Assembly (NCBI GenBank): GCA_021774695.1
Contig: JAJFIU010000147.1
Span: forward strand, 1-64,000
DNA: 64,000 nucleotides
Reading direction: 5' to 3'
DNA from: Alphaproteobacteria bacterium
GTDB lineage: Bacteria > Pseudomonadota > Alphaproteobacteria > Sphingomonadales > Kordiimonadaceae
Shown here: in pieces, positions 13,119 through 60,950 of the stretch
Numbering within the stretch: position 1 is the first letter of the stretch
Layout of the letters: every line of letters starts with the position of its first letter
Notes under the pieces: model-generated
Database searches by the model: none
Told to the model about the DNA's origin: nothing
Seen by the model: only the letters and a program-made list of their open reading frames with translations
Program-made: the position numbers and the translations under genes

Positions 13119-13169
13119 AATGATGGGCAAGTTTTCTGCGACGTCTCAATTTTCTGAGGGGGGTCTGCG

Positions 13170-15254
13170 ATGTCAAAAATAAGGGCAGCAAGTGATATTG
13201 GTGGTACCTTCACTGACCTCGTATATTTTGCAGTTGACGAAGAAACCGGGCAAGTAGCTGAAATTAACGCCGTTAAGACACACACAACGCCGGATGAATT
13301 CCAGGCTGGCGTTATGACCAGTCTTGACGTTGCGGGCATCTCGGCTAAGGATCTATCGTTTTTTGCTCACGGCTCAACCGTAGTTATCAATGCTCTGACC
13401 GAACGTAAAGGTGTGAAAACTGGACTAATAACAACACGTGGATTTCGAGATATTCTTGAAATTGCGCGCGGTAACAGACCGGACTTTTTTAATTTACGGT
13501 ACCAGAAACCTGAAGCATTTGTGCCGCGCTATCTTCGCCAGGAAGTTACGGAACGGATGACCCATCGCGGCGACGTAGTAACGCCGCTAATACTTGATGA
13601 AATCAAACCAATTCTGAAGAGTTTTGAAGCTGAGGGTGTTGAGGCGATAGCCGTTTGCCTGCTGCACTCATATGCCAACCCTGCACACGAACAACAGGTT
13701 TGTGAAGAAATCAAAAGGCTGGCGCCAAACGTCACGCTTGTGGCGTCGCACCAAATATCGCGAGAATGGCGCGAGTATGAACGAACCAACACCACGGCGT
13801 TATGCGCTTATGTCAAGCCTATCGCGGGTGCATACCTTAATGAAATGGAAAAGTCATTACAGCGTGATGGGTTCACGGGATCGTTCTATGTCATGCAGTC
13901 TAACGGAGGTATTGACACTGTCGCGTCTGCGAAAGAAGTGCCGATTTCTATCGTAGAATCAGGTCCAGCAAGTGGTGTTTTAGGAGCTGCGGCTCTAGGT
14001 AAAGTTCTTGGTATTGACGATATTCTTGCCTTTGATATTGGCGGCACCACAGCCAAGTGTTCGTTGATTGACGGAGGAAGGGTCAGCCTTACAAATCAAT
14101 ATATGATCGAAAAAAACGCTCGGTCTGCCGGCTATCCAATCATGACACCGGTTGTTGATATTGTAGAGATCGGGAATGGAGGCGGGTCAATTGGATGGGT
14201 TGACGAATTCAATAAAATGCATGTTGGACCGCAAAGCGCGGGCGCCATTCCGGGGCCGGTTGCTTACGGAAAAGGTGGCACCGAGCCGACAACTACTGAT
14301 GCGAATATACTGCTGGGACGGATCAACCCTAATTACTTTATCGGCGGAGAAATACAGGCGGATGTAGCTGCCGTTAGCTTGGCTTTCGAAAAACTCGGCG
14401 AGCAACTTGGTATGTCTGCCATTGAGGCTGCGCGAGGTGTCATTCGAATTGCAAATCACAATATGGGCAATGCCCTTAAGCTAGTTTCAATAAACCGGGG
14501 GTATGACCCGAGAGACTTCACTATGATCGCGTTTGGCGGTGGCGGCGCGATGCATGCTGCTGCACTGGCCCGTGAACTGAATATTCCGAAAGTTATTATA
14601 CCCGCTCATGCAGCGGTGTTTTCAGCATGGGGAATGTTGATGTCTGATCTGCGGCGTGACTATGCGTTGACTTTACCTCTGGCACTCAAGGCCAATAACG
14701 CATCGAAGATATCTAAGACGTTTCAGAATATTTGCACTGAAGCGACAGAAGCATACGCAACTGAATCTATAGAAAAGGGTGATGTGTATTTTGAGCAAAT
14801 GCTTGAGCTACGCTATGAGGGACAAGAGCACACCGTTCAAATTCCTATTCCATTAGACGGTATTGATGGTGCAGCAATCGAAAAACTGGTTGAAAGTTTT
14901 AATGACGCTTACGAACGCAAATATACATACCGCCTTGAGAATAATGTTGAGCTCGTTAGCTGCAAAGTAACAGCGTTTGCCCGAGTTGATCGACCAGCAA
15001 TTGGTAAATTGGATGCGTCTTTGTTTGGGTCGATTGATGAGGCGAAAAAGGAAGTTCGCGATGTGGATTTTGATGAATACGGCATGCACAAAACTACAAT
15101 ATATCAGAGAGAAAAACTGGCCCCAGGCGTTGTTTTCAGCGGTCCGGCTATTGTTGAAGAGGCGGGTAGTACGGTTGTAGTTTTCCCTTCTCAAATTCTG
15201 AACGTTGATGACTATGGTAACCTGCACATAAACACGGCGGGGGGATTATCATGA
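13170..15254 (+). CDS. Hydantoinase/oxoprolinase subunit A, second pair
   Basis: The 694-residue second A subunit has the phosphate loop DIGGTFTDL near residues 9-17, FFAHGSTVVINAL, LAFDIGGTTAKCSL and ESGPASGV. It starts 51 bp after the first B gene behind a strong TGAGGGGGG ribosome site and overlaps its own B gene by 4 bp. Having two complete A/B pairs in tandem suggests either two consecutive ATP-dependent ring openings or two substrates of one compound class, for example N-methylhydantoin and 5-oxoproline. Sequence alone does not decide between these. Confidence 0.92.
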   Translation: MSKIRAASDIGGTFTDLVYFAVDEETGQVAEINAVKTHTTPDEFQAGVMTSLDVAGISAKDLSFFAHGSTVVINALTERKGVKTGLITTRGFRDILEIARGNRPDFFNLRYQKPEAFVPRYLRQEVTERMTHRGDVVTPLILDEIKPILKSFEAEGVEAIAVCLLHSYANPAHEQQVCEEIKRLAPNVTLVASHQISREWREYERTNTTALCAYVKPIAGAYLNEMEKSLQRDGFTGSFYVMQSNGGIDTVASAKEVPISIVESGPASGVLGAAALGKVLGIDDILAFDIGGTTAKCSLIDGGRVSLTNQYMIEKNARSAGYPIMTPVVDIVEIGNGGGSIGWVDEFNKMHVGPQSAGAIPGPVAYGKGGTEPTTTDANILLGRINPNYFIGGEIQADVAAVSLAFEKLGEQLGMSAIEAARGVIRIANHNMGNALKLVSINRGYDPRDFTMIAFGGGGAMHAAALARELNIPKVIIPAHAAVFSAWGMLMSDLRRDYALTLPLALKANNASKISKTFQNICTEATEAYATESIEKGDVYFEQMLELRYEGQEHTVQIPIPLDGIDGAAIEKLVESFNDAYERKYTYRLENNVELVSCKVTAFARVDRPAIGKLDASLFGSIDEAKKEVRDVDFDEYGMHKTTIYQREKLAPGVVFSGPAIVEEAGSTVVVFPSQILNVDDYGNLHINTAGGLS

Positions 15255-45604: not shown

Positions 45605-46582
45605 TTAGCCCCCAATCGCTGACAGGTTTGAGGTCTGACCACTGTTGCCGGTGGCCAAATGGTGGCTGGAGGCTTTGCCTTTTACCGCAACCAGCAAGCG
45701 CGCCTTTAGTTCCTCAAGCTGATCGTCTGATTGCAGCAATGCCCGCATCGGCACGCCGAATTCGCCGAATAAACACAGATGCAGCTTACCCAAACTTGAA
45801 AACCGGAGTCGATTACAGCTTTTGCAAAAATCTTTGGCGTAGGGAGCGATCAGGCCAATGCTGCCTTGATAGTCAGGGTGCAAATATTCGTTAGCGGGGC
45901 CAGCGTCGGCTGCTTTCAATTTTGGAGTCCAGCCTTCCTGCAAAAGCTTATCGGCGATACTCTCGCTAGAAATATGGTGCTTCCTGAAAAAGGCTGCATG
46001 ATCTCCGGTTTCCATTAATTCGATAAAGCGCACGGACAGTGGTTGGTGTTGTACCAGCCTGAGGTAGGCATCAACCTCATGATCATTGATGCCCTTCATA
46101 TACACCGCGTTTATTTTTACCTGTTCAAAACCCGTTTCAAAGGCGGCATCAATTCCGCGCAAAATCTCGTTGCATCGGTCATGGCCGGTAATCTGTTGAA
46201 ATCTGGCGGGATCAAGGCTGTCCAGGCTAACATTCAACCCGCGGACACCGGCATCAAACCACGTCTGCGCTCGGGTTGCCAACCGATAGCCATTGGTGGT
46301 CAGCGCCAGTTTTTTGACTAGGGGAAGCGTCGCGATGGCTGTGGCAATTGCATCAAAATCACGGCGAATTGTGGGCTCTCCTCCCGTGAGCCTAATCTTG
46401 TGAATCCCCAACTCTGAAAAAGCCGTAGCGATACGTCTAATTTCGTCCAGATTGAGGGGCTCAGGGCCTGCGCATTTCCGGTAGCCATCTGGGAGGCAAT
46501 AGCTACAGCGGAAATTGCAGGCCTCAGTGACCGAGAGCCTCAAATACTTAAAGCTGCGGCCAAATCCATCGCTCAGGTGCAT
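45605..46582 (-). CDS. moaA: GTP 3',8-cyclase (molybdenum cofactor biosynthesis protein A)
   Basis: The 325-residue radical SAM enzyme catalyses the first step of molybdopterin synthesis with MoaC. The N-terminal cluster motif CNFRCSYC binds the SAM-coordinating [4Fe-4S]. KIRLTGGEPTIRRD follows. A second cluster motif, CKSCNRLRFSSLGKLHLCLF, lies in the C-terminal part and binds GTP. The start at 46582 is preferred because GGAAAGGGGATGG precedes it. No moaC gene is nearby. The two C-terminal GG residues needed in MoaA for activity (SAIGG end) are present. Upstream is a long structured leader. Confidence 0.95.
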   Translation of the reverse strand: MHLSDGFGRSFKYLRLSVTEACNFRCSYCLPDGYRKCAGPEPLNLDEIRRIATAFSELGIHKIRLTGGEPTIRRDFDAIATAIATLPLVKKLALTTNGYRLATRAQTWFDAGVRGLNVSLDSLDPARFQQITGHDRCNEILRGIDAAFETGFEQVKINAVYMKGINDHEVDAYLRLVQHQPLSVRFIELMETGDHAAFFRKHHISSESIADKLLQEGWTPKLKAADAGPANEYLHPDYQGSIGLIAPYAKDFCKSCNRLRFSSLGKLHLCLFGEFGVPMRALLQSDDQLEELKARLLVAVKGKASSHHLATGNSGQTSNLSAIGG

Positions 46583-46745
46583 AAACCATCCCCTTTCCAA
46601 AAACGAGAGGCCTGCCGGTTTCCCGCGCAAACCCGGCAGCAACAATGCTGCGGCCTTGAAGTCCTATTGCCCCGCAATAACTTCTGGGGCGACGTAGACC
46701 TCAAGGCTTCGGAGTAGAGCACTTGATGGAGGTATAATTACCCTG
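46583..46745 (-). ncRNA. Structured moaA leader, possible Moco-type riboswitch
   Basis: The leader RNA can form a nested stem, GCCTTGA/TCAAGGC (46701-46707 with 46653-46659), closing an inner GCCCC/GGGGC stem (46686-46690 with 46669-46673). Nearer the start codon is a long hairpin, CTGCCGGGTTT...AAACCGGCAG (46612-46639), ending just before the GGAAAGGGG ribosome site. A 5' CCTCC and CCATC could pair with this site. moaA is the classic gene under the Moco RNA motif. I cannot match the consensus base by base, so the identity is tentative; that it is structured RNA is better supported. Confidence 0.4.
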
Positions 46746-46771
46746 TTTAGCTGGACATGGTTTGACGCAGA

Positions 46772-48385
46772 TCAAGCGCCTTGGCGAAGGACCAAGTCAG
46801 CGAATTCGGGGCGCGGGCAACTTTCAGACTCAATTCTGGCACATTGGGTGGAAAGCTCGGCATCGCAAAAGGCGCACAAGGCGTTGTTGTCCGGCATTTT
46901 AATATGTCCAGTAGCAACCTCGAAGCCTTCTTTTTTGAACTTTTGCAAGGTGCGAGAAAAGGTTTCCGGACGCATGTCCAGATAGGATGCGATAATAGAT
47001 TTCTCGTAGGGCAGATAGATGGTGCCGTCAGTTGATTTTTGGTTGAGCGAAAGCCGTAACAAAAACCAGCCAACCCGCTCATGAGCACTTTTGAGACGTG
47101 ACAGCTCGAGCTGTTGTACCAACCGCTGGGACCGCAGCGACACTGTATTGAGCATACTGACCGCCAGCTGTGGGCTTGATTGAATGCGTTGGCGGATCAC
47201 AGGCGCAGGGATGGAAAGCATAAGGGTTTGTTCTACCACCTGAGCGCTAACCGGGGTCGGCATGTTTAAAAGGACAGACGATTCGAGCAAGGTTTCTCCG
47301 GCTCCCAGCATCTGCAGGATTGCTTCTTCCCCGGTTTCTAATCCGTTAAAGGCCTTCACCCAACCTTTCAAAATAATATACATGCGAATTGCAGGCTCAT
47401 CCCGCAAAAATAAGAGCTTATCTTTTTCATATTCCCTGATTTGAGCGAATGACAGCAGTTCGTCAAGGTCGTCATCCTCAAGCGTGGAAAGAAGTGGAAG
47501 CGACTTCAAAAAAGGTCGGTATTCCGCCATTTTCCCAGTAGCACCAATTGCTTTATCCGGTTTTATCCGCGGGTGGATCGGCGCTGATACACCTTCTAGT
47601 CCAGCAACCAGAGCAACCTCTGCGGTACGCAAACCGTCGATCATGCGAGTTAGCAGATCAAACCAAGTTTCCCCCGAATAATGCTCGATTTCGCCCGGCG
47701 AGGCGCCTTCTTCCAGCAGGTCGTTGATCAGGCCAAACGCTTCCAGATCGGTGTCTTTCACCGTGTCCTGAAGTAATGCGATCTGCGATGGTGAAGCCAA
47801 CGCCTTGAATGTATCGAAGTAAGTTTTCTGTTCGGCAACAAGTGCTACAAACCGGTCGCAAAACTCCTGATTGCGAAACGAAAATGTGTAGAAGCCGCGA
47901 GCACCAAGTGCGCGTTCCATCCCAACCCGTTCTTTCCATTGCAGAAAATTTGAATAGGCTGACACCAACGCCGAATTATGTCGTGGCTCTCGCTGCGCCA
48001 ATTCGATCATCGCGTCGATGGTTGGGATGGTATAATTGAAGGTGTAATTGTTTAGCGCGAGCGTATAGCGCACAGTTAACAACCGGATCTTGCCCCTAAG
48101 GGTTGGCAACTCCAGGTATTTCCGAAGCAACAAAGTAAGCCGCGCTTCAAAGCTTGCGGGAAGCGCACCTTTGACGTCAGCGCGGTCGCAATAGGCGCGC
48201 AGGCCTTCAATGGCCTTGTCGGTCACTTGAGTTTGGGTTTCGTAGCGCTCAGTGAAAATTTTCCCAAGGCTGTCCAGAAACAAGCCAGAACAACCGCGCT
48301 CGCGCTGAATTTGATGTACCACATCACCCAGCTTATGCAGCAGGTCCTGTACTAGTCTTGTATTTTGTTGCGGACTATCAGTCAT
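46772..48385 (-). CDS. NIT-domain / Crp-Fnr fusion transcriptional regulator, probable nitrate-responsive nar activator
   Basis: The 537-residue protein joins two known modules. Residues about 15-260 form an all-helical NIT (nitrate- and nitrite-sensing) domain with QIQRERGCSGLFLDSLGK near residues 25-42, YTFNYTIPTIDAMIEL, and LQWKERVGMERALGARGF. These Arg-containing helices form the nitrate pocket in NIT proteins such as NasR. Residues about 305-510 form a Crp-type cyclic-nucleotide-like beta roll and dimer helix. The winged helix reads KSIIASYLDMRPETFSRTLQKFKKEGF. The tail carries Cys-rich CAFCDAELSTQCARIESESC. The N-terminal FNR cluster cysteines are lacking. ATG 48385 is preferred over a TTG 33 bases upstream. 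It is divergent from narK1 with a TTGAC-N4-GTCAA box between them. Confidence 0.88.
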   Translation of the reverse strand: MTDSPQQNTRLVQDLLHKLGDVVHQIQRERGCSGLFLDSLGKIFTERYETQTQVTDKAIEGLRAYCDRADVKGALPASFEARLTLLLRKYLELPTLRGKIRLLTVRYTLALNNYTFNYTIPTIDAMIELAQREPRHNSALVSAYSNFLQWKERVGMERALGARGFYTFSFRNQEFCDRFVALVAEQKTYFDTFKALASPSQIALLQDTVKDTDLEAFGLINDLLEEGASPGEIEHYSGETWFDLLTRMIDGLRTAEVALVAGLEGVSAPIHPRIKPDKAIGATGKMAEYRPFLKSLPLLSTLEDDDLDELLSFAQIREYEKDKLLFLRDEPAIRMYIILKGWVKAFNGLETGEEAILQMLGAGETLLESSVLLNMPTPVSAQVVEQTLMLSIPAPVIRQRIQSSPQLAVSMLNTVSLRSQRLVQQLELSRLKSAHERVGWFLLRLSLNQKSTDGTIYLPYEKSIIASYLDMRPETFSRTLQKFKKEGFEVATGHIKMPDNNALCAFCDAELSTQCARIESESCPRPEFADLVLRQGA

Positions 48386-48548
48386 GTTGATTGCAAGTTC
48401 CCCACTAGGTGCGTCCAAATAACGCGCATTTTGCTGACATTACAACATAAACCCGTTGAAAAACATAGTCTGACGCCGTGCATCTCCCTCTGGATTGATG
48501 TCTTGTGCATCTCCAAAAATGCTGCAAATCCCTGAGACTTTTCCTCAC

Positions 48549-48562
48549 TTGACGTGGGTCAA
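48549..48562. promoter_or_regulatory. FNR/NarR-type box TTGACGTGGGTCAA
   Basis: This perfect TTGAC-N4-GTCAA dyad is the half-site pair read by Crp-Fnr proteins of the Dnr/NarR group. It lies 69 bp before the narK1 GTG. A CATAGT -10-like hexamer about 22 bp downstream fits an activator centred near -41.5. It also lies upstream of the divergent regulator gene, so autoregulation is possible. A near copy is at 59649-59662. Confidence 0.8.
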
Positions 48563-48630
48563 ACGCACTTGGCTGTGCCGCCATCATAGTTGCGGCAATA
48601 AAGAAGGCGAAATTTGTTTAGGAGAGAATC

Positions 48631-49941
48631 GTGACGAACACCACAGCAACTGAAGGACAACAGCGGCGCGCGTTAACGGCCAGTACCTTATCATTTACAG
48701 TGTGTTTTGCTGTTTGGACGATATTTTCAATCATTGGCATCAAGATCAAAGCCGAACTTGGTCTGAATGATACTCAGTTCGGGATTCTGGTCGCGACACC
48801 GATTCTAACCGGATCGCTCAGCAGATTGTTTCTTGGTATCTGGACTGACCAATACGGTGGACGCCTTGTTTACACCCTGCAGATGCTGACAACCGCGGTT
48901 GCTGTTTACCTGTTAACACTTGTTTCCACATATTCGATGTTTCTTGTCGCTGCCCTTGGCCTCGGCCTGGCGGGGGGTAGTTTCGCCGTCGGCGTCGCCT
49001 ATGTGTCGCGTTGGTACCCAAAGGAAAAGCAAGGTACAGCCCTGGGCATTTTTGGTATGGGTAACGTGGGTGCGGCTGTCACAAACTTCGGCGCACCTCT
49101 TCTGCTGGTTGCGCTTGGCGGTGCTTGGCAGGATGTGGCACAAGTTTATGCAATTATACTGACGCTGACCGCTGTACTGTTTTTCGTTTTTGCCAAAGAC
49201 GATCCAGTTCATACAGCTCAAAAGGCATCTGGCAAGAAACATCCCAGTTTTGTAACCCAGCTTGAACCCTTGAAAAATCTGCAGGTTTGGCGCTTCTCGC
49301 TATATTATTTCTTTGTATTCGGCGCTTATGTGGCGCTGGCACTTTGGTTGCCTCGATACTATGTGGGGGCCTACGGCCTTGAGCTTGCAACAGCAGGTTT
49401 GCTTGCGGCGGCATACGCACTGCCAGGCAGCATCTTCAGGGCACTGGGGGGCTGGTTGTCTGACAAATACGGGGCGCGTACCGTGATGTATTGGACGTTC
49501 ATAGCATCCATCGCTTGTTGCTTCATTCTTTCCTACCCTGCGACAGACTATACCGTTGCCGGCGTCGATGGACCCATTGCGTTTAACATCACAATCCCCT
49601 TGGAATTATTTGTAGCGCTGACAATTGTGCTTGGCTTCTTCATGTCGCTGGGTAAAGCCGCTGTTTACAAGCATATCCCGGTTTATTATCCGGATCACGT
49701 GGGGTCTGTGGGCGGCATGGTCGGTCTGATCGGTGGATTAGGAGGCTTTTTCCTGCCTATCGCATTCGGGGTGATGAACGACATGATCGGCGTGTGGACA
49801 AGCTGCTTCATGCTGCTGACGATTATCACTTCGATCGCGCTTACCTGGATGCACTTCACAATCCAGCGGTCTGAGAAACTGCGTGTGCCTGAACTGCGTG
49901 GGCCACGTAACCTACCTGAACTAGAGGGCCTTAAAGGCTAA
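48631..49941 (+). CDS. narK1: Nitrate transporter, NarK1-type (major facilitator)
   Basis: The 436-residue protein has 12 predicted membrane spans of the nitrate/nitrite porter family. It contains the conserved Gly-rich nitrate signature GLAGGSFAVGVAYVSRWYPKEKQGTALGIFGMGNVGAAVTNFG and a second one late in the protein (GSVGGMVGLIGGLGGFFLP). NarK1-type proteins are believed to be nitrate/proton symporters that start nitrate respiration. The gene begins with GTG behind TTAGGAGAG. It is separate from narK2 downstream; in Paracoccus the two are fused into one protein. Confidence 0.93.
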   Translation: MTNTTATEGQQRRALTASTLSFTVCFAVWTIFSIIGIKIKAELGLNDTQFGILVATPILTGSLSRLFLGIWTDQYGGRLVYTLQMLTTAVAVYLLTLVSTYSMFLVAALGLGLAGGSFAVGVAYVSRWYPKEKQGTALGIFGMGNVGAAVTNFGAPLLLVALGGAWQDVAQVYAIILTLTAVLFFVFAKDDPVHTAQKASGKKHPSFVTQLEPLKNLQVWRFSLYYFFVFGAYVALALWLPRYYVGAYGLELATAGLLAAAYALPGSIFRALGGWLSDKYGARTVMYWTFIASIACCFILSYPATDYTVAGVDGPIAFNITIPLELFVALTIVLGFFMSLGKAAVYKHIPVYYPDHVGSVGGMVGLIGGLGGFFLPIAFGVMNDMIGVWTSCFMLLTIITSIALTWMHFTIQRSEKLRVPELRGPRNLPELEGLKG

Positions 49942-50038: not shown

Positions 50039-51676
50039 ATGACTGAAGAAGTTAAACAGTTGGAAGAAAAAGGGCGAGACCTTTTTGGTTGGAACCCGGA
50101 TGATGAGGCCCAGTGGGAATCGGCGGGTAAAAAAATTGCCACTCGCAACCTGTGGATTTCAATCCCTGCATTGTTGTGCGGTTTTGCGGTCTGGCTTTAT
50201 TGGGGCATCATCACTGTTCAAATGATGAACCTTGGCTTTAATATCAGCCAATCTGAACTATTCACTCTTGCCGCTATCGCGGGCTTGTCTGGCGCAACAC
50301 TGCGTATCCCAAGTACCTTCTTCATTCGAATAGCCGGAGGCCGCTATACGTTATTTTTAACCACAGCCCTATTGATCATACCCGCAGCTGGCGTTGGCTA
50401 TATGCTGCGAGACATCAACACACCGCTGTGGCAGTTCCAACTGATGGCGCTCCTTTCCGGTATTGGCGGCGGCAACTTTGCGTCTTCCATGTCAAACATC
50501 AGTTTCTTTTACCCGAAGAAAATCCAGGGGTATGCGCTGGGTATGAACGCTGGTTTGGGTAATTTCGGTGTTACAACCATGCAGATTTTGGTGCCTCTGG
50601 TAATGACATTCGCTCTGTTCGGCGGCGATCCAATGACGCTGAAAACCACATCCGGCACATTGATTGGTAAGATCCCTGCAGGGACCGATGCTTATATATT
50701 CAACGCCGGTTGGGTATGGCTGTTGTTCCTGGTGCCGCTTGCAATTGCAATCTGGTTTGGCATGAACACCATCCGCGACGATCATGTTTCCCCTGATGCG
50801 AGTTCTGCCCTGCCAGCCTTTGGTAAAATTCTGGGTATGCTCTTGATTGGTTTGGCTACAGCGTCGTTTGGTTTGTGGTTGATGCTGCCGGAAGCAACGG
50901 GTGGATCCGGTCTTAATGTGAATAAATGGATCGTATTGCCGATTGTTATTATTTCAACCCTTGGCTTGATGAAACTGATCCCTGGAAAAATTCAAACAAA
51001 CCTCAAGCGTCAGTTTGCAATTTTTGACAATAAGCACACCTGGGCCATGACTGTTATCTATACGATGACATTTGGTAGCTTCATTGGCTTCGCGGCAACA
51101 ACTGCGCTGGCGATTAAAGTGATCTTTGGTTACCAGCACATTATGGGCGCTGACGGCGTGATGACCCATATTGCAAACCCTAATGGCCCCAGTGCCCTGA
51201 TGTTTGCATGGATGGGCCCTTTCATCGGTGCGCTTATTCGTCCGCTTGGCGGCATGTGGGCCGACAAAATGGGCGGCGCCAAAGTAACGCAAATTATTAG
51301 TGTTGTGATGGTCGCAAGCGCGCTGGGCGTGGCTTACTATATGAAGGCAGCTTATGCGTCTGCCACACCAGAGGAATTCTTTTATCCGTTCCTTGGTCTC
51401 TTGGTCATTCTGTTTGCAGCAACCGGTATTGGAAATGGTTCAACTTTCCGCACCATTGCCATGGTTTTCAACAAAGAGCAGGCCGGGCCGGTTCTGGGTT
51501 GGACAAGCGCGATTGCAGCGTACGGCGCCTTCATTATTCCCAAGGTGTTCGGCGAGCAGATCAAAGCAACCACACCTGAGTATGCTCTCTATGGCTTCGC
51601 TGTTTTCTACAGTGTCTGCATCCTGATCAACTGGTGGTTCTACCTACGCAAGAACGCCTACGTGAAAAACCCGTAA
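50039..51676 (+). CDS. narK2: Nitrate/nitrite transporter, NarK2-type (major facilitator)
   Basis: The 545-residue nitrate/nitrite porter has the signatures GGNFASSMSNISFFYPKKIQGYALGMNAGLGNFGVT and, late, GIGNGSTFRTIAMVF. It is longer than NarK1, with an N-terminal cytoplasmic extension of about 45 residues before the first span. NarK2-type proteins mostly exchange nitrate for nitrite, preventing nitrite accumulation. AAGGAG precedes the ATG. Together with NarK1 it gives the two-transporter arrangement known from denitrifiers. Confidence 0.93.
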   Translation: MTEEVKQLEEKGRDLFGWNPDDEAQWESAGKKIATRNLWISIPALLCGFAVWLYWGIITVQMMNLGFNISQSELFTLAAIAGLSGATLRIPSTFFIRIAGGRYTLFLTTALLIIPAAGVGYMLRDINTPLWQFQLMALLSGIGGGNFASSMSNISFFYPKKIQGYALGMNAGLGNFGVTTMQILVPLVMTFALFGGDPMTLKTTSGTLIGKIPAGTDAYIFNAGWVWLLFLVPLAIAIWFGMNTIRDDHVSPDASSALPAFGKILGMLLIGLATASFGLWLMLPEATGGSGLNVNKWIVLPIVIISTLGLMKLIPGKIQTNLKRQFAIFDNKHTWAMTVIYTMTFGSFIGFAATTALAIKVIFGYQHIMGADGVMTHIANPNGPSALMFAWMGPFIGALIRPLGGMWADKMGGAKVTQIISVVMVASALGVAYYMKAAYASATPEEFFYPFLGLLVILFAATGIGNGSTFRTIAMVFNKEQAGPVLGWTSAIAAYGAFIIPKVFGEQIKATTPEYALYGFAVFYSVCILINWWFYLRKNAYVKNP

Positions 51677-51702: not shown

Positions 51703-54700
51703 ATGAGCAATTTTATCGACCGGCTCTCATACTTCACCAAATCGCCTGAGACATTCTCGGACGGTCACGGCATTACAACCGACGAAAGCCGATCCTGGGA
51801 AAAGGCCTACCGTGGCCGCTGGTCACATGACAAAGTTGTGCGCTCCACCCACGGGGTGAATTGTACCGGGTCTTGCAGTTGGAAGATTTACGTAAAAAAC
51901 GGCCTGGTAACCTGGGAAACCCAGCAGACAGACTATCCCAAAACCCGGCCGGATTTGCCCAACCACGAACCGCGTGGCTGCGCGCGCGGCGCCAGCTACA
52001 GTTGGTATCTATATAGTGCTGCGCGGCTGAAATATCCGCTGGTTCGCGGCCGGTTGCTGGCTCTGTGGCGCAAGGCAAAAGAAGAGTTTCCAGACCCGGT
52101 CGATGCTTGGGGGAGTATTGTTTCAGACCCCAAAAAGGCCAGCGAATATAAGAAAGTACGCGGCCTTGGTGGTTTTGTCCGCGCTGAATGGGACGAAGTG
52201 AACGAGATTACCGCCGCGTCTAATGTTTATACAGCCAAAGAGTTTGGCCCCGACCGCATCATCGGATTTTCGCCGATCCCGGCGATGTCCATGGTGTCTT
52301 ACGCGGCGGGTAGCCGGTATTTGTCATTGATCGGCGGCGTTTGCATGTCTTTCTACGATTGGTACTGCGACCTGCCGCCCAGTTCGCCGCAAACATGGGG
52401 CGAGCAGACCGACGTACCTGAAAGTGCGGACTGGTATAATTCAGGCTATATCATCGCCTGGGGATCCAACGTGCCGCAAACCCGCACACCAGATGCCCAT
52501 TTCTTCACCGAGGTGCGTTATAAAGGCACTAAAACTGTATCAGTAACCCCGGATTATTCCGAAGTCGCAAAGCTCACCGATATTTGGCTTAACCCGCGTC
52601 AGGGAACCGATAGTGCAATGGCGATGGCAATGGGCCATGTGGTTTTGAAAGAGTTTCACACTGCTGGCAAATCAGAATATTTTGACGATTATTGCCGCAT
52701 GTATACCGACATGCCGTTTCTGGTTGTTTTGGACGAAAAAGACGGTCAACTGGTGCCCGGTCGCCTGCTGCGTGCCTCCGATATGGCCGACAACTTGGGC
52801 GAAGAAAAGAATGCCGAATGGAAAGCTGTCATCCTTGACGGTAATTCTGACAAAATATGTGTGCCCAACGGCACTATCGGTTCACGTTGGGATGAAAGCA
52901 AAAAGTGGAATCTTGAGCTTAAGAATGTGGCTGATGGCAGTGATATTTGGCCCAAAGTCAGCCTGATTGAAGGCAGCGATACGGTCGAAGCAGTGGCCTT
53001 TCCCTATTTTGGCAACATAGTAAATGATCAGCCTATCTTCAAACACACCGATCATGCCAGCGTTCTGGAACGCAATGTGCCGATTAAAACCGTTGAAACC
53101 AAAGACGGCCCTGTCAAAGTCGCGACAGTCTTCGATCTTATGGCCGCCAACTACGGTGTAGACCGCGGCCTCGGCGGCGGTAATGTAGCAAAATCCTTTG
53201 ATGACGACGTGCCCTACACGCCGGCTTGGCAGGAAAAAATTACCGGTGTGGATCGCAGCAAAGTGATCCAGGTGGCGCGCGAATTTGCCACCAATGCTGA
53301 CCAGACACGGGGTCGATCAATGGTCATTCTCGGGGCAGCAATAAATCACTGGTATCATATGGATATGATCTACCGGGGCATAATGAACCTGCTGATCATG
53401 TGCGGTTGTGTCGGTAAATCTGGCGGTGGCTGGGCGCACTATGTGGGCCAGGAAAAGCTGCGTCCACAAACTGGCTGGCAGCCGCTTGCCTTTGGCCTTG
53501 ATTGGACGCGGCCACCACGGCACATGAATTCGACCAGTTTCTTCTACAACCACTCCAATCAGTGGCGCTATGAAAAGCTGGAAGTGGACGAAATCCTGTC
53601 GCCGTTGGCTGATAAGGAAAAATGGCAAAATACCACATTGCTTGATTGCAACGTACAGTCCGAACGTATGGGTTGGCTGCCATCTGCGCCGCAGTTGAAT
53701 GACAATCCGCTGAGAGTAGCTAAAGCCGCTGATGCTGCAGGCATGAAAGCTGCAGATTATGTTGTCGAGAAACTCAAGTCTGGCGATCTTGCCTTTGCCT
53801 GCGAAGACCCGGATGATGCGAAAAATTTCCCGCGCAATATGTTTATCTGGCGCTCAAACATCCTTGGCTCTTCCGGCAAGGGTCACGAATATATGCTCAA
53901 ACACCTGTTGGGCACCCAAAATGGCCTTTTAGGTAAGGACATGGGTTCAACTGGTGGCCAGAAACCAAGCGAGGTAGTTTGGCACGACGAAGCGCCGGAA
54001 GGTAAACTCGACCTTGTCGTTACGTTAGATTTCCGCATGTCAACTACCTGTGTCTATTCCGACATCGTTCTGCCGTCGGCCACATGGTACGAAAAGAACG
54101 ACCTAAACACTTCCGACATGCATCCGTTCATTCATCCGTTGACACGTGCCGTTGATCCGGCGTGGGAAAGCCGCAGTGACTGGGATATTTACCGTGGTCT
54201 CGCAGAGAAATTCTCTGAAATCTGTGTCGGGCACCTGGGTGTTGAAAAAGACATTGTCACCTTGCCTATCCTCCACGATACGCCCGGTGAAATGGCGCAG
54301 CCGCTGGGTGTAACTGACTGGAAAAAAGGCCAGTGTGAGCCCATCCCCGGCAAGACCATGCCTAATATCATCGAAGTTACACGCGATTACCCCAATACAT
54401 ACAAGCGCTTTACCGCTCTTGGGCCGTTGATGGGTAAATTGGGTAACGGCGGCAAGGGCATTGGCTGGAACACCGAAGATGAAGTTGACCTTCTCGGTCG
54501 TCTCAACGGCGTCCACGACGAAACAGGCGCGAATGAGGGCATGCCAAAAATTGTCACTGACGTAGACGCGGCGGAGATAGTTCTGTCGTTAGCGCCTGAA
54601 ACCAACGGTCAAGTGGCGGTAAAAGCATGGGCTGCGCTCGGCAATATCACCGGGCGGGAACATACCCATTTGGCCAAACCCAAGCAGGATGAAAAAATCC

Positions 54701-55449
54701 GTTTCCATGATATCAAAGCACAGCCACGCAAAATTATATCCTCGCCGACCTGGTCGGGGCTTGAGGATGAGCATGTCAGTTACAATGCGGGCTACACCAA
54801 TGTGCATGAGCTTATTCCGTGGCGAACACTAACCGGCCGGCAGCATTTCTATCAAGACCACGAATGGATGCGCGATTTCGGAGAGGGTTTCTGCGTCTAC
54901 AAAGCACCAGTTAACACCAAGACCGTTGCGCCGGTTATGGAAAAGCACGGCCAAGGTGCTAAACAAGTGGCGCTTAACTGGATCACTCCGCACCAAAAAT
55001 GGGGCATCCATTCCACCTACAGTGATAACCTGCTGATGCTGACGCTCAACCGCGGCGGGCCTGTGGTCTGGATGTCAGAAACCGATGCCCGCAAAATCGA
55101 TGTCGAGGATAATGACTGGATTGAGCTTTACAACGCCAACGGCGCTATTATGGCTCGCGCGGTTGTCTCCCAGCGTGTGCCCGAGGGCATGACCATGATG
55201 TATCACGCACAGGAAAAAACCATCAACACGCCGATAGCTAAAACAACCGGCGGCAGGGGCGGTATCCACAACTCCGTCACCCGAACGGTGGTCAAACCTA
55301 CGCACATGATCGGTGGGTACGCCCAACTGGCTTATGGCTTCAATTACTATGGCACTGTTGGTTCGAACCGCGATGAGTTTGTGGTTGTCCGGAAGGCCGA
55401 AAATGTCGAATGGGGTGAAGAACTCGCAACCCCTACAGCGGCCGAATAG
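51703..55449 (+). CDS. narG: Membrane-bound nitrate reductase, alpha (catalytic) subunit
   Basis: The 1248-residue molybdopterin (bis-MGD) enzyme reduces nitrate to nitrite on the cytoplasmic side. The FS0 [4Fe-4S] ligands are visible as HGVNCTGSC with a later Cys in RGCARG (His-x3-Cys-x3-Cys...Cys). The Mo ligand Asp lies in the region CDLPPSSPQTWGEQTDVPES. Length equals the E. coli protein. Start ATG 51703 follows GGAGAAAACCC; an earlier in-frame start lies inside narK2. NarG lacks a Tat signal, as normal for this group, but carries an N-terminal twin-Arg-like stretch remnant only weakly. It is followed by narH after a short gap. Confidence 0.96.
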   Translation: MSNFIDRLSYFTKSPETFSDGHGITTDESRSWEKAYRGRWSHDKVVRSTHGVNCTGSCSWKIYVKNGLVTWETQQTDYPKTRPDLPNHEPRGCARGASYSWYLYSAARLKYPLVRGRLLALWRKAKEEFPDPVDAWGSIVSDPKKASEYKKVRGLGGFVRAEWDEVNEITAASNVYTAKEFGPDRIIGFSPIPAMSMVSYAAGSRYLSLIGGVCMSFYDWYCDLPPSSPQTWGEQTDVPESADWYNSGYIIAWGSNVPQTRTPDAHFFTEVRYKGTKTVSVTPDYSEVAKLTDIWLNPRQGTDSAMAMAMGHVVLKEFHTAGKSEYFDDYCRMYTDMPFLVVLDEKDGQLVPGRLLRASDMADNLGEEKNAEWKAVILDGNSDKICVPNGTIGSRWDESKKWNLELKNVADGSDIWPKVSLIEGSDTVEAVAFPYFGNIVNDQPIFKHTDHASVLERNVPIKTVETKDGPVKVATVFDLMAANYGVDRGLGGGNVAKSFDDDVPYTPAWQEKITGVDRSKVIQVAREFATNADQTRGRSMVILGAAINHWYHMDMIYRGIMNLLIMCGCVGKSGGGWAHYVGQEKLRPQTGWQPLAFGLDWTRPPRHMNSTSFFYNHSNQWRYEKLEVDEILSPLADKEKWQNTTLLDCNVQSERMGWLPSAPQLNDNPLRVAKAADAAGMKAADYVVEKLKSGDLAFACEDPDDAKNFPRNMFIWRSNILGSSGKGHEYMLKHLLGTQNGLLGKDMGSTGGQKPSEVVWHDEAPEGKLDLVVTLDFRMSTTCVYSDIVLPSATWYEKNDLNTSDMHPFIHPLTRAVDPAWESRSDWDIYRGLAEKFSEICVGHLGVEKDIVTLPILHDTPGEMAQPLGVTDWKKGQCEPIPGKTMPNIIEVTRDYPNTYKRFTALGPLMGKLGNGGKGIGWNTEDEVDLLGRLNGVHDETGANEGMPKIVTDVDAAEIVLSLAPETNGQVAVKAWAALGNITGREHTHLAKPKQDEKIRFHDIKAQPRKIISSPTWSGLEDEHVSYNAGYTNVHELIPWRTLTGRQHFYQDHEWMRDFGEGFCVYKAPVNTKTVAPVMEKHGQGAKQVALNWITPHQKWGIHSTYSDNLLMLTLNRGGPVVWMSETDARKIDVEDNDWIELYNANGAIMARAVVSQRVPEGMTMMYHAQEKTINTPIAKTTGGRGGIHNSVTRTVVKPTHMIGGYAQLAYGFNYYGTVGSNRDEFVVVRKAENVEWGEELATPTAAE

Positions 55450-55459
55450 GAGAAGTTGG

Positions 55460-57016
55460 ATGAAAATACGTGCACAAATCGGCATGGTCCTCAATTTGGA
55501 CAAATGCATCGGCTGTCATACCTGCTCGGTCTCTTGCAAAAATGTCTGGACCAGCCGTGAAGGTGTTGAATATGCCTGGTTCAACAACGTGGAAACCAAA
55601 CCCGGCGTTGGCTACCCAAAAGACTGGGAAAACCAGCGTGAGTGGAATGGTGGCTGGGAACGCAAAACCAGTGGCAAAATTCAACCCAAAATGGGCGGTA
55701 AGCTAAGACTTTTATCCAAAATATTTGCCAACCCGGACCTGCCTGAAATTGATGATTATTATGAGCCCTTCACGTTTGATTACGCCCACCTGCAAAATTC
55801 GCCGGAAGTGAATACGCCGCCAACGGCGCGCGCGCATTCGGCGATTACCGGACAGAAAATGGAAAAAGTTGAATGGGGACCTAACTGGGAAGAAATCCTC
55901 GGCGGCGAGTTTGAAAAACGATCACAGGATTATAATTTCAAGGATATTGAAAAAGACATCTACGGCCAGTTTGAAAATACTTTCATGATGTATCTACCGA
56001 GGCTTTGCGAGCATTGCCTCAACCCCACATGCGTGGCTGCGTGCCCTTCGGGTGCGATCTATAAACGCGAGGAAGACGGCATTGTTTTGATCGACCAAGA
56101 CAAATGTCGTGGCTGGCGCATGTGTGTATCGGGTTGCCCCTACAAGAAAATCTATTTCAACTGGCAATCCGGAAAATCGGAAAAATGTACCTTTTGTTTC
56201 CCGCGTATTGAGAACGGCGAGCCGACAGTATGCTCGGAAACCTGCGTGGGTCGCATCCGCTATCTTGGTGTCCTGCTTTATGATGCTGACCGCATTGAGG
56301 AAGCTGCGTCAACGGCCGACGAACAGGACCTGTATCAGGCCCAATGCGATATTTTCCTGGACCCCCATGATCCTGAGGTTATTGCGCAAGCGAAACGAGA
56401 CGGCGTACCTCATAGTTGGTTAGAGGCCGCAAAACAGTCACCGGTTTACAAAATGGCGATCGACTGGAAAGTTGCCTTCCCGCTACATCCAGAGTATCGC
56501 ACCTTGCCAATGGTCTGGTACATCCCGCCGTTGTCACCGATTCAAAGTGCCTACAACGACGGAAAAATTCCCGGCGACGACATTATGCCGGATGTGAAAA
56601 GCCTGCGCATACCGGTCAAATACTTGGCCAATTTGCTAACCGGCGGCAAGGAAGAGCCAGTTGTGCATGCGCTTGAACGTATGATGGCGATGCGTAGTTT
56701 CATGCGCGGCAAAACCGTCGGCAGCGGCGGCGATAAAGCCATTCTTGACCGCGTTGGTCTGGATGAACGCACGCTGGCTGACATGTATAAAATCATGGCG
56801 CTTGCCGACTATGATGACCGTTTTGTCATCCCGACCAACCACCGCGAATATGCCGGCAAAACGCCGTTTGACAATGATATTGCTTTTGAAAGTCGGTCAG
56901 CCTGCGGCTTCAGTTTCGGTGACGGTTGTTCCGGTGGATCAAACGGTTCCAAGAGCATGTTTGGCGGACCAACGCACAAAAACACCATGAGCGGTAATGT
57001 AAGGAAACCAAAATGA
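55460..57016 (+). CDS. narH: Membrane-bound nitrate reductase, beta (iron-sulfur) subunit
   Basis: The 518-residue electron-transfer subunit has four Cys clusters: CIGCHTCSVSCKNVW near residues 16-30; CEHCLNPTCVAACP; CRGWRMCVSGCP; and CTFCFPRIENGEPTVCSETC. The Trp in CRGWRMC replaces a Cys and gives the [3Fe-4S] centre, as in E. coli NarH. Electrons pass from the NarI haems to NarG. ATG 55460 follows AGGAGAAG; an earlier in-frame start lies within narG. The C-terminus has a Gly/Ser/Cys-rich tail. It overlaps narJ by 4 bp. Confidence 0.96.
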   Translation: MKIRAQIGMVLNLDKCIGCHTCSVSCKNVWTSREGVEYAWFNNVETKPGVGYPKDWENQREWNGGWERKTSGKIQPKMGGKLRLLSKIFANPDLPEIDDYYEPFTFDYAHLQNSPEVNTPPTARAHSAITGQKMEKVEWGPNWEEILGGEFEKRSQDYNFKDIEKDIYGQFENTFMMYLPRLCEHCLNPTCVAACPSGAIYKREEDGIVLIDQDKCRGWRMCVSGCPYKKIYFNWQSGKSEKCTFCFPRIENGEPTVCSETCVGRIRYLGVLLYDADRIEEAASTADEQDLYQAQCDIFLDPHDPEVIAQAKRDGVPHSWLEAAKQSPVYKMAIDWKVAFPLHPEYRTLPMVWYIPPLSPIQSAYNDGKIPGDDIMPDVKSLRIPVKYLANLLTGGKEEPVVHALERMMAMRSFMRGKTVGSGGDKAILDRVGLDERTLADMYKIMALADYDDRFVIPTNHREYAGKTPFDNDIAFESRSACGFSFGDGCSGGSNGSKSMFGGPTHKNTMSGNVRKPK

Positions 57017-57708
57017 TCACTTTCAAACTTCTCGGGCTGCTGCTCTCATACCCAAGCGAAGATATGCAGCACTATATGGGTGAGATCAAAGAAGCGATTA
57101 AACAGGAAGCGCTGGTGCCCGCTAAATTGAGAAAACCGCTGTTCGCCTTCATGGATGATTTGGAGCGTCGCAGTATCCTTCGCATACAGGAAGATTATGT
57201 GGCTTTGTTTGATCGTTCCCGGGCCAACTCACTTTATTTGTTTGAGCATGTGCACGGCGAAAGCCGCGACCGCGGCCAAGCGATGGTTGACCTGATGGGT
57301 ATTTATAAGACCCATGGCTTCACGCTGGCGAAGCGTGAACTGCCTGATTATCTGCCGCTTTTTCTAGAGTATCTGTCTGTTCGCCCCTTTGCTGAGGCGC
57401 AGGAAATGCTGGCTGAAACTGCACATATACTGGCGGCGGTCGGGGCAAAGCTTAAGGCTAAGAAAAGCCCCTACCAGCATGTTTTCCGCATCCTTGAAGT
57501 GCTAACCGACGTTGAAGTGGACCCCAAGGTTATCGAGCAGGCAGTTCTTGATGCGAACCGCGAAGATAACAGCTTAGAGGCCCTTGACCGTGAGTGGGAA
57601 GAAACGCCCGCCTTTGACGGTACGGGAACTGCTGCTGACTGCGCCGTTTGCCCGCAGGCGACCCGGCACGAAACTAAACTTGCGGCCCCTGCCGCACCCA
57701 TTGGATAG
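57013..57708 (+). CDS. narJ: Nitrate reductase assembly chaperone
   Basis: The 231-residue all-helical protein is of the TorD/NarJ family. It binds the NarG N-terminus and allows molybdenum cofactor and FS0 insertion before membrane docking. Recognised by the N-terminal LLGLLLSYPSEDMQ, the central YVALFDRSRANSLYLFEHVHGESRDRGQAMVDLM and LPDYLPLFLEYLS. The C-terminus has a CAVCPQ pair of unknown use. The gene overlaps narH (4 bp) and is followed by narI. Confidence 0.95.
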   Translation: MITFKLLGLLLSYPSEDMQHYMGEIKEAIKQEALVPAKLRKPLFAFMDDLERRSILRIQEDYVALFDRSRANSLYLFEHVHGESRDRGQAMVDLMGIYKTHGFTLAKRELPDYLPLFLEYLSVRPFAEAQEMLAETAHILAAVGAKLKAKKSPYQHVFRILEVLTDVEVDPKVIEQAVLDANREDNSLEALDREWEETPAFDGTGTAADCAVCPQATRHETKLAAPAAPIG

Positions 57709-57717
57709 GAGAGGGAC

Positions 57718-58401
57718 ATGACCGCATATCTCAATGATTTTTTCTTCGGAATTTACCCCTATCTTGCCATCGTGGTTTTGGTGCTCGGCTCAATGCTGCG
57801 CTACGATCAGGACCCCTACAGCTGGAAGGCTGGCTCAAGCCAACTGCTGCGCTCCAAGGGAATGCGGGTTGGCAGCAACCTGTTCCATGTTGGCATCATC
57901 CTGTTGTTTTTCGGGCACCTTGTCGGGCTTTTAACGCCGGAGCCCCTTTACCACTTGGTGATGAGCGCACCGGAGAAACAGCTAATGGCGATGGTTGCCG
58001 GCGGCATATTTGGCACAATCTGTTTTGTCGGCATGACAATCTTACTCATTCGGCGACTAACGGACCCGCGCATACGCGCCACCAGCAGTTTCGCTGATAT
58101 CATGATCCTTGTGGTTTTGTATGTGCAACTGATCCTCGGGCTTGCAACCATTCCGGCGTCGGCCCAGCATTCTGACGGTAGTTCGATGATAGCGCTGGCC
58201 AACTGGGCGCAGCATATTGTGACATTCCGTTCTGGTGCCGCTGATTTTGTACTGCACGAGCCGGCCATCTTTAAAGCGCACATCGTGCTGGGGCTGACTA
58301 TATTTGTATTGTTCCCGTTCACACGGCTTGTGCATGTGCTGTCAGCGCCGGTGAAATATCTGTTCCGGTCCGGTTACCAGATTGTGCGAAGGAGGGGCTA
58401 A
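57718..58401 (+). CDS. narI: Respiratory nitrate reductase, gamma (cytochrome b) subunit
   Basis: The 227-residue protein has five membrane spans and binds two haem b groups. It takes electrons from quinol and anchors NarGH to the membrane. Haem-ligand histidines are visible in NLFHVGIILLFFGHLVGL and in ANWAQHIV and FKAHIVLGL towards the C-terminus. TAGGAGAGGGAC precedes the ATG. It ends the core narGHJI unit; a further small gene follows after 3 bases. Confidence 0.95.
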   Translation: MTAYLNDFFFGIYPYLAIVVLVLGSMLRYDQDPYSWKAGSSQLLRSKGMRVGSNLFHVGIILLFFGHLVGLLTPEPLYHLVMSAPEKQLMAMVAGGIFGTICFVGMTILLIRRLTDPRIRATSSFADIMILVVLYVQLILGLATIPASAQHSDGSSMIALANWAQHIVTFRSGAADFVLHEPAIFKAHIVLGLTIFVLFPFTRLVHVLSAPVKYLFRSGYQIVRRRG

Positions 58402-58404
58402 ATC

Positions 58405-58857
58405 ATGCCGATTTATGTAAACGCAGTTGAAATAGACGATGATGCTGTCTTTAAGGAAATGCAGTTTCACCCGGCACCCACCCGCGAGGAGGCGCGCGAC
58501 GAAGCGGCAAAGGCTTTGGTGATACAGGAATTGCTGCGCCAACAAGCTGTTGAAAATGGCATACTGGAGGACACGGCGGATATGGATGCTGTTGAAGCAG
58601 CTGCCCTAAAGTTGATGGAAACGCAAGTGACCACACCCGAAGCCGACAGCATTGCCTGCCGCCGCTATTATGACCAAAATATTGAGCGTTTCCGGGTCGC
58701 TGAAGGTAGCAATATGCCACTGCCCTTTGACAAAGTTGAACACCGTATCCGCGATTATCTGCACACCAGGAGTATCCGCCATGGAATTCAGTCTTACCTG
58801 CTGGACCTTGCTGGAAAAGCAAAGATTGCGGGCTTTGATCTCTCGGCTAGCCTATAG
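58405..58857 (+). CDS. Parvulin-like nar-operon protein lacking the catalytic PPIase domain
   Basis: The 150-residue protein resembles the PpiC/NifM-like isomerase often found after narI, but only its two ends. The N-terminal helical chaperone part reaches ACRRYYDQNIERFR at about 94-107. Normally a parvulin domain of roughly 100 residues follows (SHIL... to VHVI...). Here the sequence jumps, after a few residues, to the C-terminal LPFDKVEHRIRDYLHTRS and its helix. The frame is intact, so this looks like an internal deletion that kept both chaperone lobes. It may still help assemble NarGHI. An AAGGAGGGGC ribosome site precedes the start. Confidence 0.75.
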   Translation: MPIYVNAVEIDDDAVFKEMQFHPAPTREEARDEAAKALVIQELLRQQAVENGILEDTADMDAVEAAALKLMETQVTTPEADSIACRRYYDQNIERFRVAEGSNMPLPFDKVEHRIRDYLHTRSIRHGIQSYLLDLAGKAKIAGFDLSASL

Positions 58858-59648: not shown

Positions 59649-59662
59649 TTGACTTGGGTCAC
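59649..59662. promoter_or_regulatory. FNR/NarR-type box TTGACTTGGGTCAC before the porin gene
   Basis: This is a TTGAC-N4-GTCA dyad with one mismatch in the right half. The 14-mer and the preceding CTG/CAC-CTTGAC context closely resemble the box at 48549-48562. It lies 59 bp before the porin start. Two AAAAAAAGTG repeats lie just upstream (59611-59642), perhaps an UP-element. Confidence 0.7.
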
Positions 59663-59720: not shown

Positions 59721-60950
59721 ATGAAAAAAACAGCCCCATTTTTTTCAGTTAGCGCCCTCGCACTGTTAGCTGCCATGCCGGCAGCGGCGCAGGAAGCAAC
59801 CGGTGCATCCAATTTTATTGCCGACGGTGATGCAGGCCTTGACCTGCGCTATCGTCTAGAGCTTGTTGACCAGGATGGATTCAACAAAAATGCCACCGCC
59901 TCAACCCTGTTGACCAAGCTTTGGTATAAAACAGCCGAGGTGAATGGATTCAGCGCCTATGTGGAAGGCACCAACGTTTTGGTATTGGGCAGCGAAACCT
60001 ACAACAATACCGTTAACGGCAATACATCGCGCCCGGTGGTGGCTGACCCGGATGTCACCGAATTCAATCAGGGTTATGTTCAATATAAGAATGATGACTT
60101 CACGCTGAAAGCCGGACGTCAGGGCATCAACCTGGGCAACCAGCGTTTTGTTGGCACCGTCGGGTTTCGCCAGAACGATCAGACATACGATGCTGCCGCG
60201 GCTATTCTCACGCCGACCAAGGAATTGACCGCAATATACGGCTATGTCTGGAACGTTAACCGGATTTTCGGCAACGATCACCCCTTTGGTGACCTTGATA
60301 CCGAGACCCAGGTCGTTAATGTCATATACTCGGGCTTTGAGTTCGCGAAAATTACTGCCTACGCATACCTGATAGATCTTAACGACGCGCCGGTTTTTGG
60401 TCTCTCCAGCAGTACATATGGTGCCCGCCTTGAAGGCAATAAAGCGGTGTCTGAAAATCTTAAATTGGGTTATGAAATCGAGTATGCGTCTCAGTCAGAC
60501 TATAAAGACAATCCTAATGATTACAGCGCTGATTATTGGAACGCCAGCTTAAGCGCCTCGTCCAGTGGTTTTACCGGCCAGATTGGTTACGAGCTTCTTG
60601 GAAGCGACAACGGCGTTGCCTTTCAGACACCGCTGGCGACGCTTCATAAGTTCAACGGCTGGGCCGACAAATTTCTGTCAACACCAGGTGCTGGTTTGGA
60701 GGACTTAAATGCTTCGGTGGCCTATAAAGTACCCGGTGAAACCGGGTTGGGCGGCACCTTGTTCAAGCTCGTTTACCATGATTTTTCCAGCGATGTTGGC
60801 AACAGTTCCTACGGCAGCGAAATAGATGCCCTTATTTCGAAGAAAGTGACAAAATATATCACTGCCTCGGTTAAGGCCGCTTTTTATAACGCTGATGGTT
60901 TTGCCACCGACACAAACAAAATTTGGTTCACATTGGGGGCCAAGTTTTGA
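59721..60950 (+). CDS. Outer-membrane porin, alginate-export-like beta barrel
   Basis: The 409-residue protein has a clear signal peptide ending MPAAAQ. Many short amphipathic beta strands follow, with a C-terminal strand ending in KF, as expected for an outer-membrane barrel. The YVQYKNDDFTLKAGRQGINLGNQRFVGTVGFRQNDQTYDAA segment is typical of the alginate_exp/porin group. Its own promoter box matches the narK1 box, so it is probably made under nitrate-respiring conditions and may admit nitrate or release nitrite. AAGGAGTTG precedes the ATG. Confidence 0.88.
   Translation: MKKTAPFFSVSALALLAAMPAAAQEATGASNFIADGDAGLDLRYRLELVDQDGFNKNATASTLLTKLWYKTAEVNGFSAYVEGTNVLVLGSETYNNTVNGNTSRPVVADPDVTEFNQGYVQYKNDDFTLKAGRQGINLGNQRFVGTVGFRQNDQTYDAAAAILTPTKELTAIYGYVWNVNRIFGNDHPFGDLDTETQVVNVIYSGFEFAKITAYAYLIDLNDAPVFGLSSSTYGARLEGNKAVSENLKLGYEIEYASQSDYKDNPNDYSADYWNASLSASSSGFTGQIGYELLGSDNGVAFQTPLATLHKFNGWADKFLSTPGAGLEDLNASVAYKVPGETGLGGTLFKLVYHDFSSDVGNSSYGSEIDALISKKVTKYITASVKAAFYNADGFATDTNKIWFTLGAKF

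Follow-up and report, generated by a model that had tools for sequence, protein, structure and literature searches.

NasR of Klebsiella oxytoca, a NIT–ANTAR antiterminator, is a one-component, nitrate-responsive NIT protein (PMC7496416) whose ANTAR output domain binds RNA on the nasF leader. The nitrate motif is G-x-x-R; NasR keeps both arginines, with one glycine replaced by glutamine (PMC8199190), and its residues E175 and R176 lie within the predicted pocket (PMC7496416). No binding of nitrate or nitrite was seen in vitro for a NIT domain of P. aeruginosa PA4520 (PMC6381276). Among Crp/Fnr proteins, NarR (Paracoccus) is reported to control nar with nitrate/nitrite and, according to a review, replaces NarXL in alphaproteobacteria, where no NarXL homologues have been identified (PMC8139620). 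Bacillus Fnr holds an oxygen-labile [4Fe-4S] cluster on a C-terminal C-x2-C-x4-C motif (three Cys) plus Asp141 (PMC3520743), and narKGHJI of Corynebacterium has a dedicated regulator of its own, ArnR, which possesses C-terminal Cys and a [4Fe-4S] cluster (PMC12343034).

The stretch of 64,000 nucleotides analysed here (the window) encodes a regulator that resembles NasR in being a one-component NIT sensor with the same fold and the same two arginine motifs, but its output is a Crp DNA-binding module, beside respiratory nar genes, in place of an RNA-binding ANTAR domain. It resembles NarR as a Crp/Fnr protein proposed to regulate nar with nitrate/nitrite and to stand in for NarXL, whereas the NarR-type proteins of Thioclava and Shinella (narK-divergent, and taken as NarR's kind) lack both a NIT domain and a four-Cys tail. 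Like Bacillus Fnr, it has a C-terminal Cys cluster behind a Crp HTH; unlike Bacillus Fnr, with its three Cys and Asp141, it carries a NIT domain as well as four Cys (C-x2-C-x7-C-x7/8-C), and this spacing (2-7-7/8) and the fourth Cys set it apart from the Bacillus type. The E-x-x-SR helix in a Crp-type protein is shared with FNR and FnrN, but the FNR cysteines are N-terminal, whereas the conserved Cys of the regulator are confined to the tail; the Cys cluster N-terminal of the Crp module and the central Cys of FNR proper and FnrN are absent. ArnR is similar as a dedicated nar regulator with C-terminal Cys and differs as a winged-HTH repressor that senses NO, with no NIT domain mentioned in the available text.

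The regulator is probably a one-component, nitrate- and/or nitrite-responsive class II activator of nar, moaA, and an outer-membrane porin gene, with a tail that may bind a metal. It belongs to a conserved one-component NIT–Crp regulator family of nitrate respiration; among the papers listed by searches of open-licence PMC text, none was seen to describe a NIT–Crp protein, and none is named in the available text of PMC8199190, PMC9603854, PMC12531629, PMC1592074, or PMC5936718.

Domain Architecture of the Regulator

The ORF has exact ends on the minus strand, with its ATG at 48385 and its stop codon ending at 46772 (Table 1). A sequence-only reading of this DNA had proposed that a NIT domain is fused to a Crp/Fnr regulator, and Pfam searches bear this out at the same coordinates: NIT (PF08376) matches with E 4.1e-38 (132.5 bits against a curated cut-off of 24.9), cNMP_binding with E 6.5e-15, and HTH_Crp_2 with E 9.4e-11. 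A cNMP_binding fold followed by HTH_Crp is the layout of the Crp/Fnr superfamily. An ANTAR output domain gave no Pfam match in the regulator up to E 1, the Crp module occupying its place. The NIT match is the only one in the source genome (3.8 Mb, 172 contigs, 90.7% complete; Kordiimonas is among the nearest named relatives) in a genome-wide search. An origin of the fusion by chance or mis-annotation can be dismissed, because it recurs in 39 of 118 genomes and 73 of 79 loci.

By sequence, the NIT part matches NasR (4akk) with E 2.6e-14, and an AlphaFold model of the regulator (mean pLDDT 75.8, pTM 0.54) superposes on NasR 4akk_B with Z 28.8 and an rmsd of 3.4 Å over 262 residues. Residues 501–530 of this model, the tail region, have a mean pLDDT of 76–83 by blocks. 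In the recognition helix, E474, S477, and R478 are each present in 75 of 75 family members; this E-x-x-SR helix is presumably the FNR-type signature of TTGAY-N4-RTCAA binders.

Table 1. Positions of the regulator gene, its domains and motifs, and neighbouring features, counted from the first nucleotide of the window.
Feature	Positions	Strand	Basis or remark
mobA-like ORF, after moaA	45037–45606
moaA	45605–46582	−	Radical_SAM + Mob_synth_C
Moco (molybdenum/tungsten) riboswitch RF01055	46574–46726	−	62.8 bits (gathering 36), E 9.7e-14
Second box, TTGATCTGCGTCAA	46762–46775	.	TTGATCTGCGTCAA is the minus strand; overlaps regulator stop codon, upstream of moaA
NIT–Crp–C4 regulator gene, 537 aa	46772–48385	−	ORF + Pfam + family alignment
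Four-Cys tail C504-x2-C507-x7-C515-x7-C523	46817–46876	−	Family alignment
HTH_Crp_2, residues 436–505	46871–47080	−	Pfam
Recognition helix E474-x-x-S477-R478	46952–46966	−	Family alignment
cNMP_binding (Crp effector) domain, residues 317–403	47177–47437	−	Pfam
NIT domain, residues 21–263	47597–48325	−	PF08376 + NasR 4akk fold
G155-x-x-R158, second anion-site half (NasR E175/R176 region)	47912–47923	−	Alignment to NasR
Q27-x-x-R30, first half of NasR-type anion site	48296–48307	−	Family alignment
Crp/Fnr-type box, TTGACGTGGGTCAA	48549–48562	.	Centre about 75 nt from narK1 start
Predicted narK1 −10 element	48585–48590	+	Includes the conserved A (48586), 30.5 nt past the box centre
narK1	48631–49941	+	Named by reading and linkage
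narK2	50039–51676	+	Named by reading and linkage
narG	51703–55449	+	Matches annotated nitrate reductase alpha subunits
narH	55460–57016	+
narJ	57013–57708	+
narI	57718–58401	+
Third box, TTGACTTGGGTCAC, upstream of porin	59649–59662	+	One mismatch
Alginate_exp-type outer-membrane porin	59721–60950	+	Pfam

Linkage to nar Genes

The link to nar genes, also drawn in the earlier reading, is conserved far beyond the source genome. A divergent nar gene ends within 1.5 kb in 55 of the 66 NIT loci that have at least 1.5 kb of upstream sequence. The remaining 11 comprise seven with nar genes at another place in the locus and four in which none is visible. Of these four, L087 and L096 have some 10 kb of sequence on either side, whereas the upstream sequence of L074 and L078 extends over just 4.3 and 3.2 kb. 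Three of the seven NIT loci with shorter flanks still show nar.

In 118 genomes (the source genome and its relatives; family matches at E 1e-40), the family and narG occur together in 40, narG alone in 13, the family alone in none, and neither in 65 (Fisher p 1.7e-20, a statistic that ignores relatedness); three of the narG-only genomes (G042, G047, G063) match narG at only 46–47% identity. Within the genus, 8 genomes have both and 11 have neither. Loss of the regulator and nar as one block would also give this co-occurrence.

PilJ is the sensor domain type of NarX and NarQ. Among the 59 genomes searched, 16 of the 18 that carry the family gave no PilJ match; G006 has one and G041 one below the cut-off, and the same search obtained a match in E. 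coli as a control. The suggestion that the fusion protein replaces NarXL fits this result.

Directly after narI lies a small ORF (58405–58857, plus strand) with no Pfam match. A Thioclava plasmid nar operon has, in the corresponding places, a gene annotated as peptidylprolyl isomerase followed by a carbonic anhydrase gene.

Crp/Fnr-Type Boxes at narK, moaA, and the Porin Gene

The TTGAC-type box that had been pointed out at narK is real: TTGACGTGGGTCAA is a perfect TTGAC-N4-GTCAA, of which the window has just this one (0.04 expected), and it is conserved beyond the source genome. A perfect TTGAY-N4-RTCAA is present in 57 of 59 nar intergenic regions shorter than 500 bp after correction of two start sites (narK in L032 and the regulator in L038, whose perfect boxes lie 74.5 and 78.5 nt, respectively, from the homologous narK start). 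The uncorrected count, 55 of 59, compares with a dinucleotide-shuffle mean of 0.12 and maximum of 2; random 300-bp windows of the same loci contain a box in 3.4% of cases. L050 and L054 have one-mismatch sites in place of the perfect box. The 59 regions include L108, which is NIT-less, and L076, where a narG fragment is the only nar neighbour; three of all 62 regions (L079, L083, L085) exceed 500 bp and stand outside the count, and these also hold perfect boxes.

A conserved A lies 30.5 nt downstream of the box centre in 33 of 43 non-redundant promoters (reduced from 55 aligned promoters, the alignment being anchored on the box). In class II geometry, a box centre about 30.5 nt upstream of the −10 A equals centring at −41.5. 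If the conserved A is the −11 A, the narK box would be centred at −41.5, which is the predicted class II Fnr-type spacing. A sigma-70 pattern scan of positions 46500–48700 found 0 matches, with 1.7 expected.

At moaA, a perfect box occurs within 300 nt upstream in 27 of 32 cases. The Moco riboswitch is situated between the second box and moaA, and RF01055 is also present in five of six related loci searched (absent in L040). The box centre is 42.5 nt upstream of the riboswitch 5′ end in the source genome, and 43.5 (L033), 41.5 (L036), 38.5 (L039), 30.5 (L083), and 66.5 nt (L059) upstream of it in relatives. This arrangement suggests dual control of moaA, by a nitrate/redox box and by feedback from the cofactor. 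The homologous porin gene is preceded by a perfect box in nine of nine relative loci; the copy in the window has one mismatch.

Proposed Mode of Action

The analysis establishes the architecture, the linkage to nar and co-occurrence with narG, the conservation of residues and boxes, and the geometry of the promoters; to these we add by inference the ligand, the direction of the effect, box binding by the NIT–Crp protein, and the tail cofactor. The N-terminal NIT domain would bind the nitrate or nitrite anion between the two arginines R30 and R158, and this binding would free or order the C-terminal Crp-type dimer. The dimer would then bind TTGAY-N4-RTCAA centred at about −41.5 and exert class II activation on the divergent narK1K2GHJI, on moaA (which also carries a Moco riboswitch), and on the outer-membrane porin gene. 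The four-Cys tail behind the HTH would bind a metal, possibly as an oxygen- or NO-labile Fe-S cluster, and could thereby add a redox condition.

The family offers an explicit sensor domain and defined local targets (nar, moaA with its riboswitch, and the porin gene), so that the nitrate input is directly testable. Carriers with strain names include Kordiimonas marina, K. sediminis, Pseudokordiimonas caeni, and Asticcacaulis aquaticus, and loci in which the second anion motif (L087) or the whole NIT domain (L102, L103) has been lost provide natural controls.

The Four-Cys Tail and Possible Oxygen Control

The Cys-rich C-terminal tail noticed in the sequence-only reading has held up: C504 is kept in 74 of 75 family members (L050 being the member without it), and C507, C515, and C523 are each kept in all 75, with a spacing of 2-7-7 in 71 members and 2-7-8 in four. 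These four are the only Cys columns kept in at least 90% of the 75 rows; C32 is present in 42 of 75, and a Cys at the F528 column in 30 of 75. NIT-less relatives share the four-Cys motif, and four of these proteins are encoded near nar genes; the tail therefore goes with the DNA-binding half, independently of NIT.

It is close to an even chance that the regulator senses nitrate only, with tail Cys that are zinc-bound or structural, and that oxygen control of the same boxes passes through FnrN, FixK, or a hemN-linked DNR-like paralogue. The near-fixed spacing of the four Cys would fit zinc no less than an Fe-S cluster, and candidate oxygen regulators are encoded in related genomes: an N-terminal C-x2-C-x7-C is present in the FnrN-like proteins of G006, G026, and G041 (the genomes in which this cluster was read), and G015, G021, and G023 have further FnrN-like matches. 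The source genome encodes three other clear Crp/Fnr proteins, namely L111, which is FixK-like by reading, lacks an N-terminal Cys cluster, and is the only FnrN-like match in that genome; L112, with an N-terminal CxxCxxC; and the DNR-like L113 (contig C60), beside a hemN-like ORF. A C-terminal C-x2-C-x5-C, reminiscent of Bacillus Fnr, is present in all four DNR-like rows (L113, L140, L148, L149), and such proteins are a possible oxygen sensor in Kordiimonas genomes with no FnrN-like match. However, several NIT–Crp genomes have to be accounted for: among 12 searched at E 1e-20, no FnrN-like match was found in G001, G004, G005, G010, and G012, and of these G012 (Kordiimonas marina) is 100% complete, G010 only 83% (the source genome, 91%). 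In addition, the C-terminal Cys of Bacillus Fnr can hold an oxygen-labile [4Fe-4S] cluster (PMC3520743). This cluster may serve as a precedent for how the tail works, not as a sign of membership in that group.

Tentatively, if the tail carries an Fe-S cluster, a single polypeptide could combine the presence of nitrate with the absence of oxygen (or NO): the NIT domain would read the electron acceptor, the cluster next to the DNA-binding helix would read the redox state, and both would jointly gate nar, moaA, and the porin gene. Such a protein would take over the tasks of FNR and of NarXL, would explain the family genomes with no FnrN-like match, and would be a compact two-input switch, useful as a nitrate biosensor part.

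The Anion Site and Its Ligand

The regulator has the two-arginine anion site of NIT domains (Q/G-x-x-R and G-x-x-R). Q27 and R30 are kept in 72 of 75 family members, the remaining three being truncated or gapped there, and G155 and R158 in 74 of 75, with L087 as the sole exception; judged from this alignment, the anion site is under selection. NasR E175–R176 falls on E157–R158 of the regulator by sequence alignment, given a hand-counted difference of 27 that separates chain from protein numbering. Both motifs are also present in seven of seven control NIT domains from other proteins; conservation of the motifs therefore does not identify the ligand, and it is dismissed as proof of nitrate binding.

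The regulator is unlikely to respond to something other than nitrate or nitrite, be it through a different anion sensed by the NIT domain or through a role of that domain in protein interactions. PA4520, whose NIT domain bound neither anion (PMC6381276), sets a precedent for such a response, and Q/G-x-x-R motifs occur in NIT domains generally; against it, NasR is a NIT protein that does respond to nitrate (PMC7496416), the strict narK–narG tie argues for nitrate or nitrite, and loss of the motif or domain coincides with lost nar linkage in L087 and L103.

L087 (10001–11569) has lost G155 and R158, its NIT domain still matching Pfam at E 2.9e-20, and is a natural candidate for a nitrate-blind form. 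It adjoins a carbonic anhydrase gene, not nar. L103 has the same ORF order and sizes, again with that carbonic anhydrase, but its Crp protein is without NIT, and in both genomes the nar operon is elsewhere, beside a different NIT-less four-Cys Crp protein. These losses represent at best one or two events, because the two genomes (G067 and G055) share one genus. L096, which keeps an intact NIT domain although the surrounding 10 kb or so contain no nar gene, runs against the pattern.

Other Regulators at the Same Boxes

The source genome contains 46 perfect boxes, against 16 for a reversed control pattern, which makes it very likely that other regulators share this box. The consensus of the nar box is also that of Sphingopyxis Fnr (PMC7713065). 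As proof of NIT–Crp binding the box is dismissed, since its consensus is general and the NIT-less L108 has it too.

It is improbable, all the same, that the boxes belong to other Crp/Fnr paralogues while the NIT–Crp protein has its targets elsewhere, or represses or antagonises. That reading draws on the generic consensus, on E-x-x-SR paralogues in the same genome, and on the many boxes outside nar, but the narK box is retained in the genomes with no FnrN-like match (G001, G004, G005, G010, and G012; loci L037, L038, L033, L032, and L036), the residues E474, S477, and R478 are invariant, and the spacing to the conserved A is activator-like. The boxes, proposed to be bound by the NIT–Crp protein, could also serve its paralogues.

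On contig C68 of the source genome (7474–46065), 13 perfect boxes occur within about 39 kb, in the region of the FixK-like L111. The region, perhaps a microaerobic island, also holds an ORF that resembles a universal-stress protein by eye.

Distribution and Phylogeny

The family is matched in 40 of the 118 genomes, in one of them (G055) in the Crp part only, which leaves the fusion in 39; the copy in G065 has a stop inside the matched frame. A contig scan, in which the best 80 of 260 relatives were kept and which is not a census, gave 79 loci, of which 73 have NIT plus Crp and six Crp only. Near-copies weigh in these counts, 74 relatives collapsing to 37 at 80% identity. Host names among the listed relatives are Kordiimonas, Emcibacter, Robiginitomaculum, Asticcacaulis, Hyphomonadaceae, and some gammaproteobacteria. 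The family is rare, since a draw of the phylum yielded it in three of 398 genomes at E 1e-45, the source genome included. A plasmid collection held no place matching at least 80% of the whole regulator protein.

In a phylogenetic tree, the NIT–Crp proteins form a clade (support 99/93) in which L102 and L103 are nested; these two are likely NIT losses. The NIT-less four-Cys proteins L108, L109, L128, and L129 form a second clade (100/95), and five NarR-like rows a third of their own (98/95), so that Crp proteins of three lineages or more have come to lie beside nar genes. The regulator is separated from NarR on the basis of these NarR-like proteins, Paracoccus NarR itself being outside the tree. 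Genes of the NIT-less four-Cys clade at loci with nar genes lie at 3221–3961 (L128), 3147–4013 (L129), 9917–10690 (L108), and 2319–3128 (L109). L055 has two NIT–Crp copies, at 10001–11581 and 13092–14660, which flank a porin gene.
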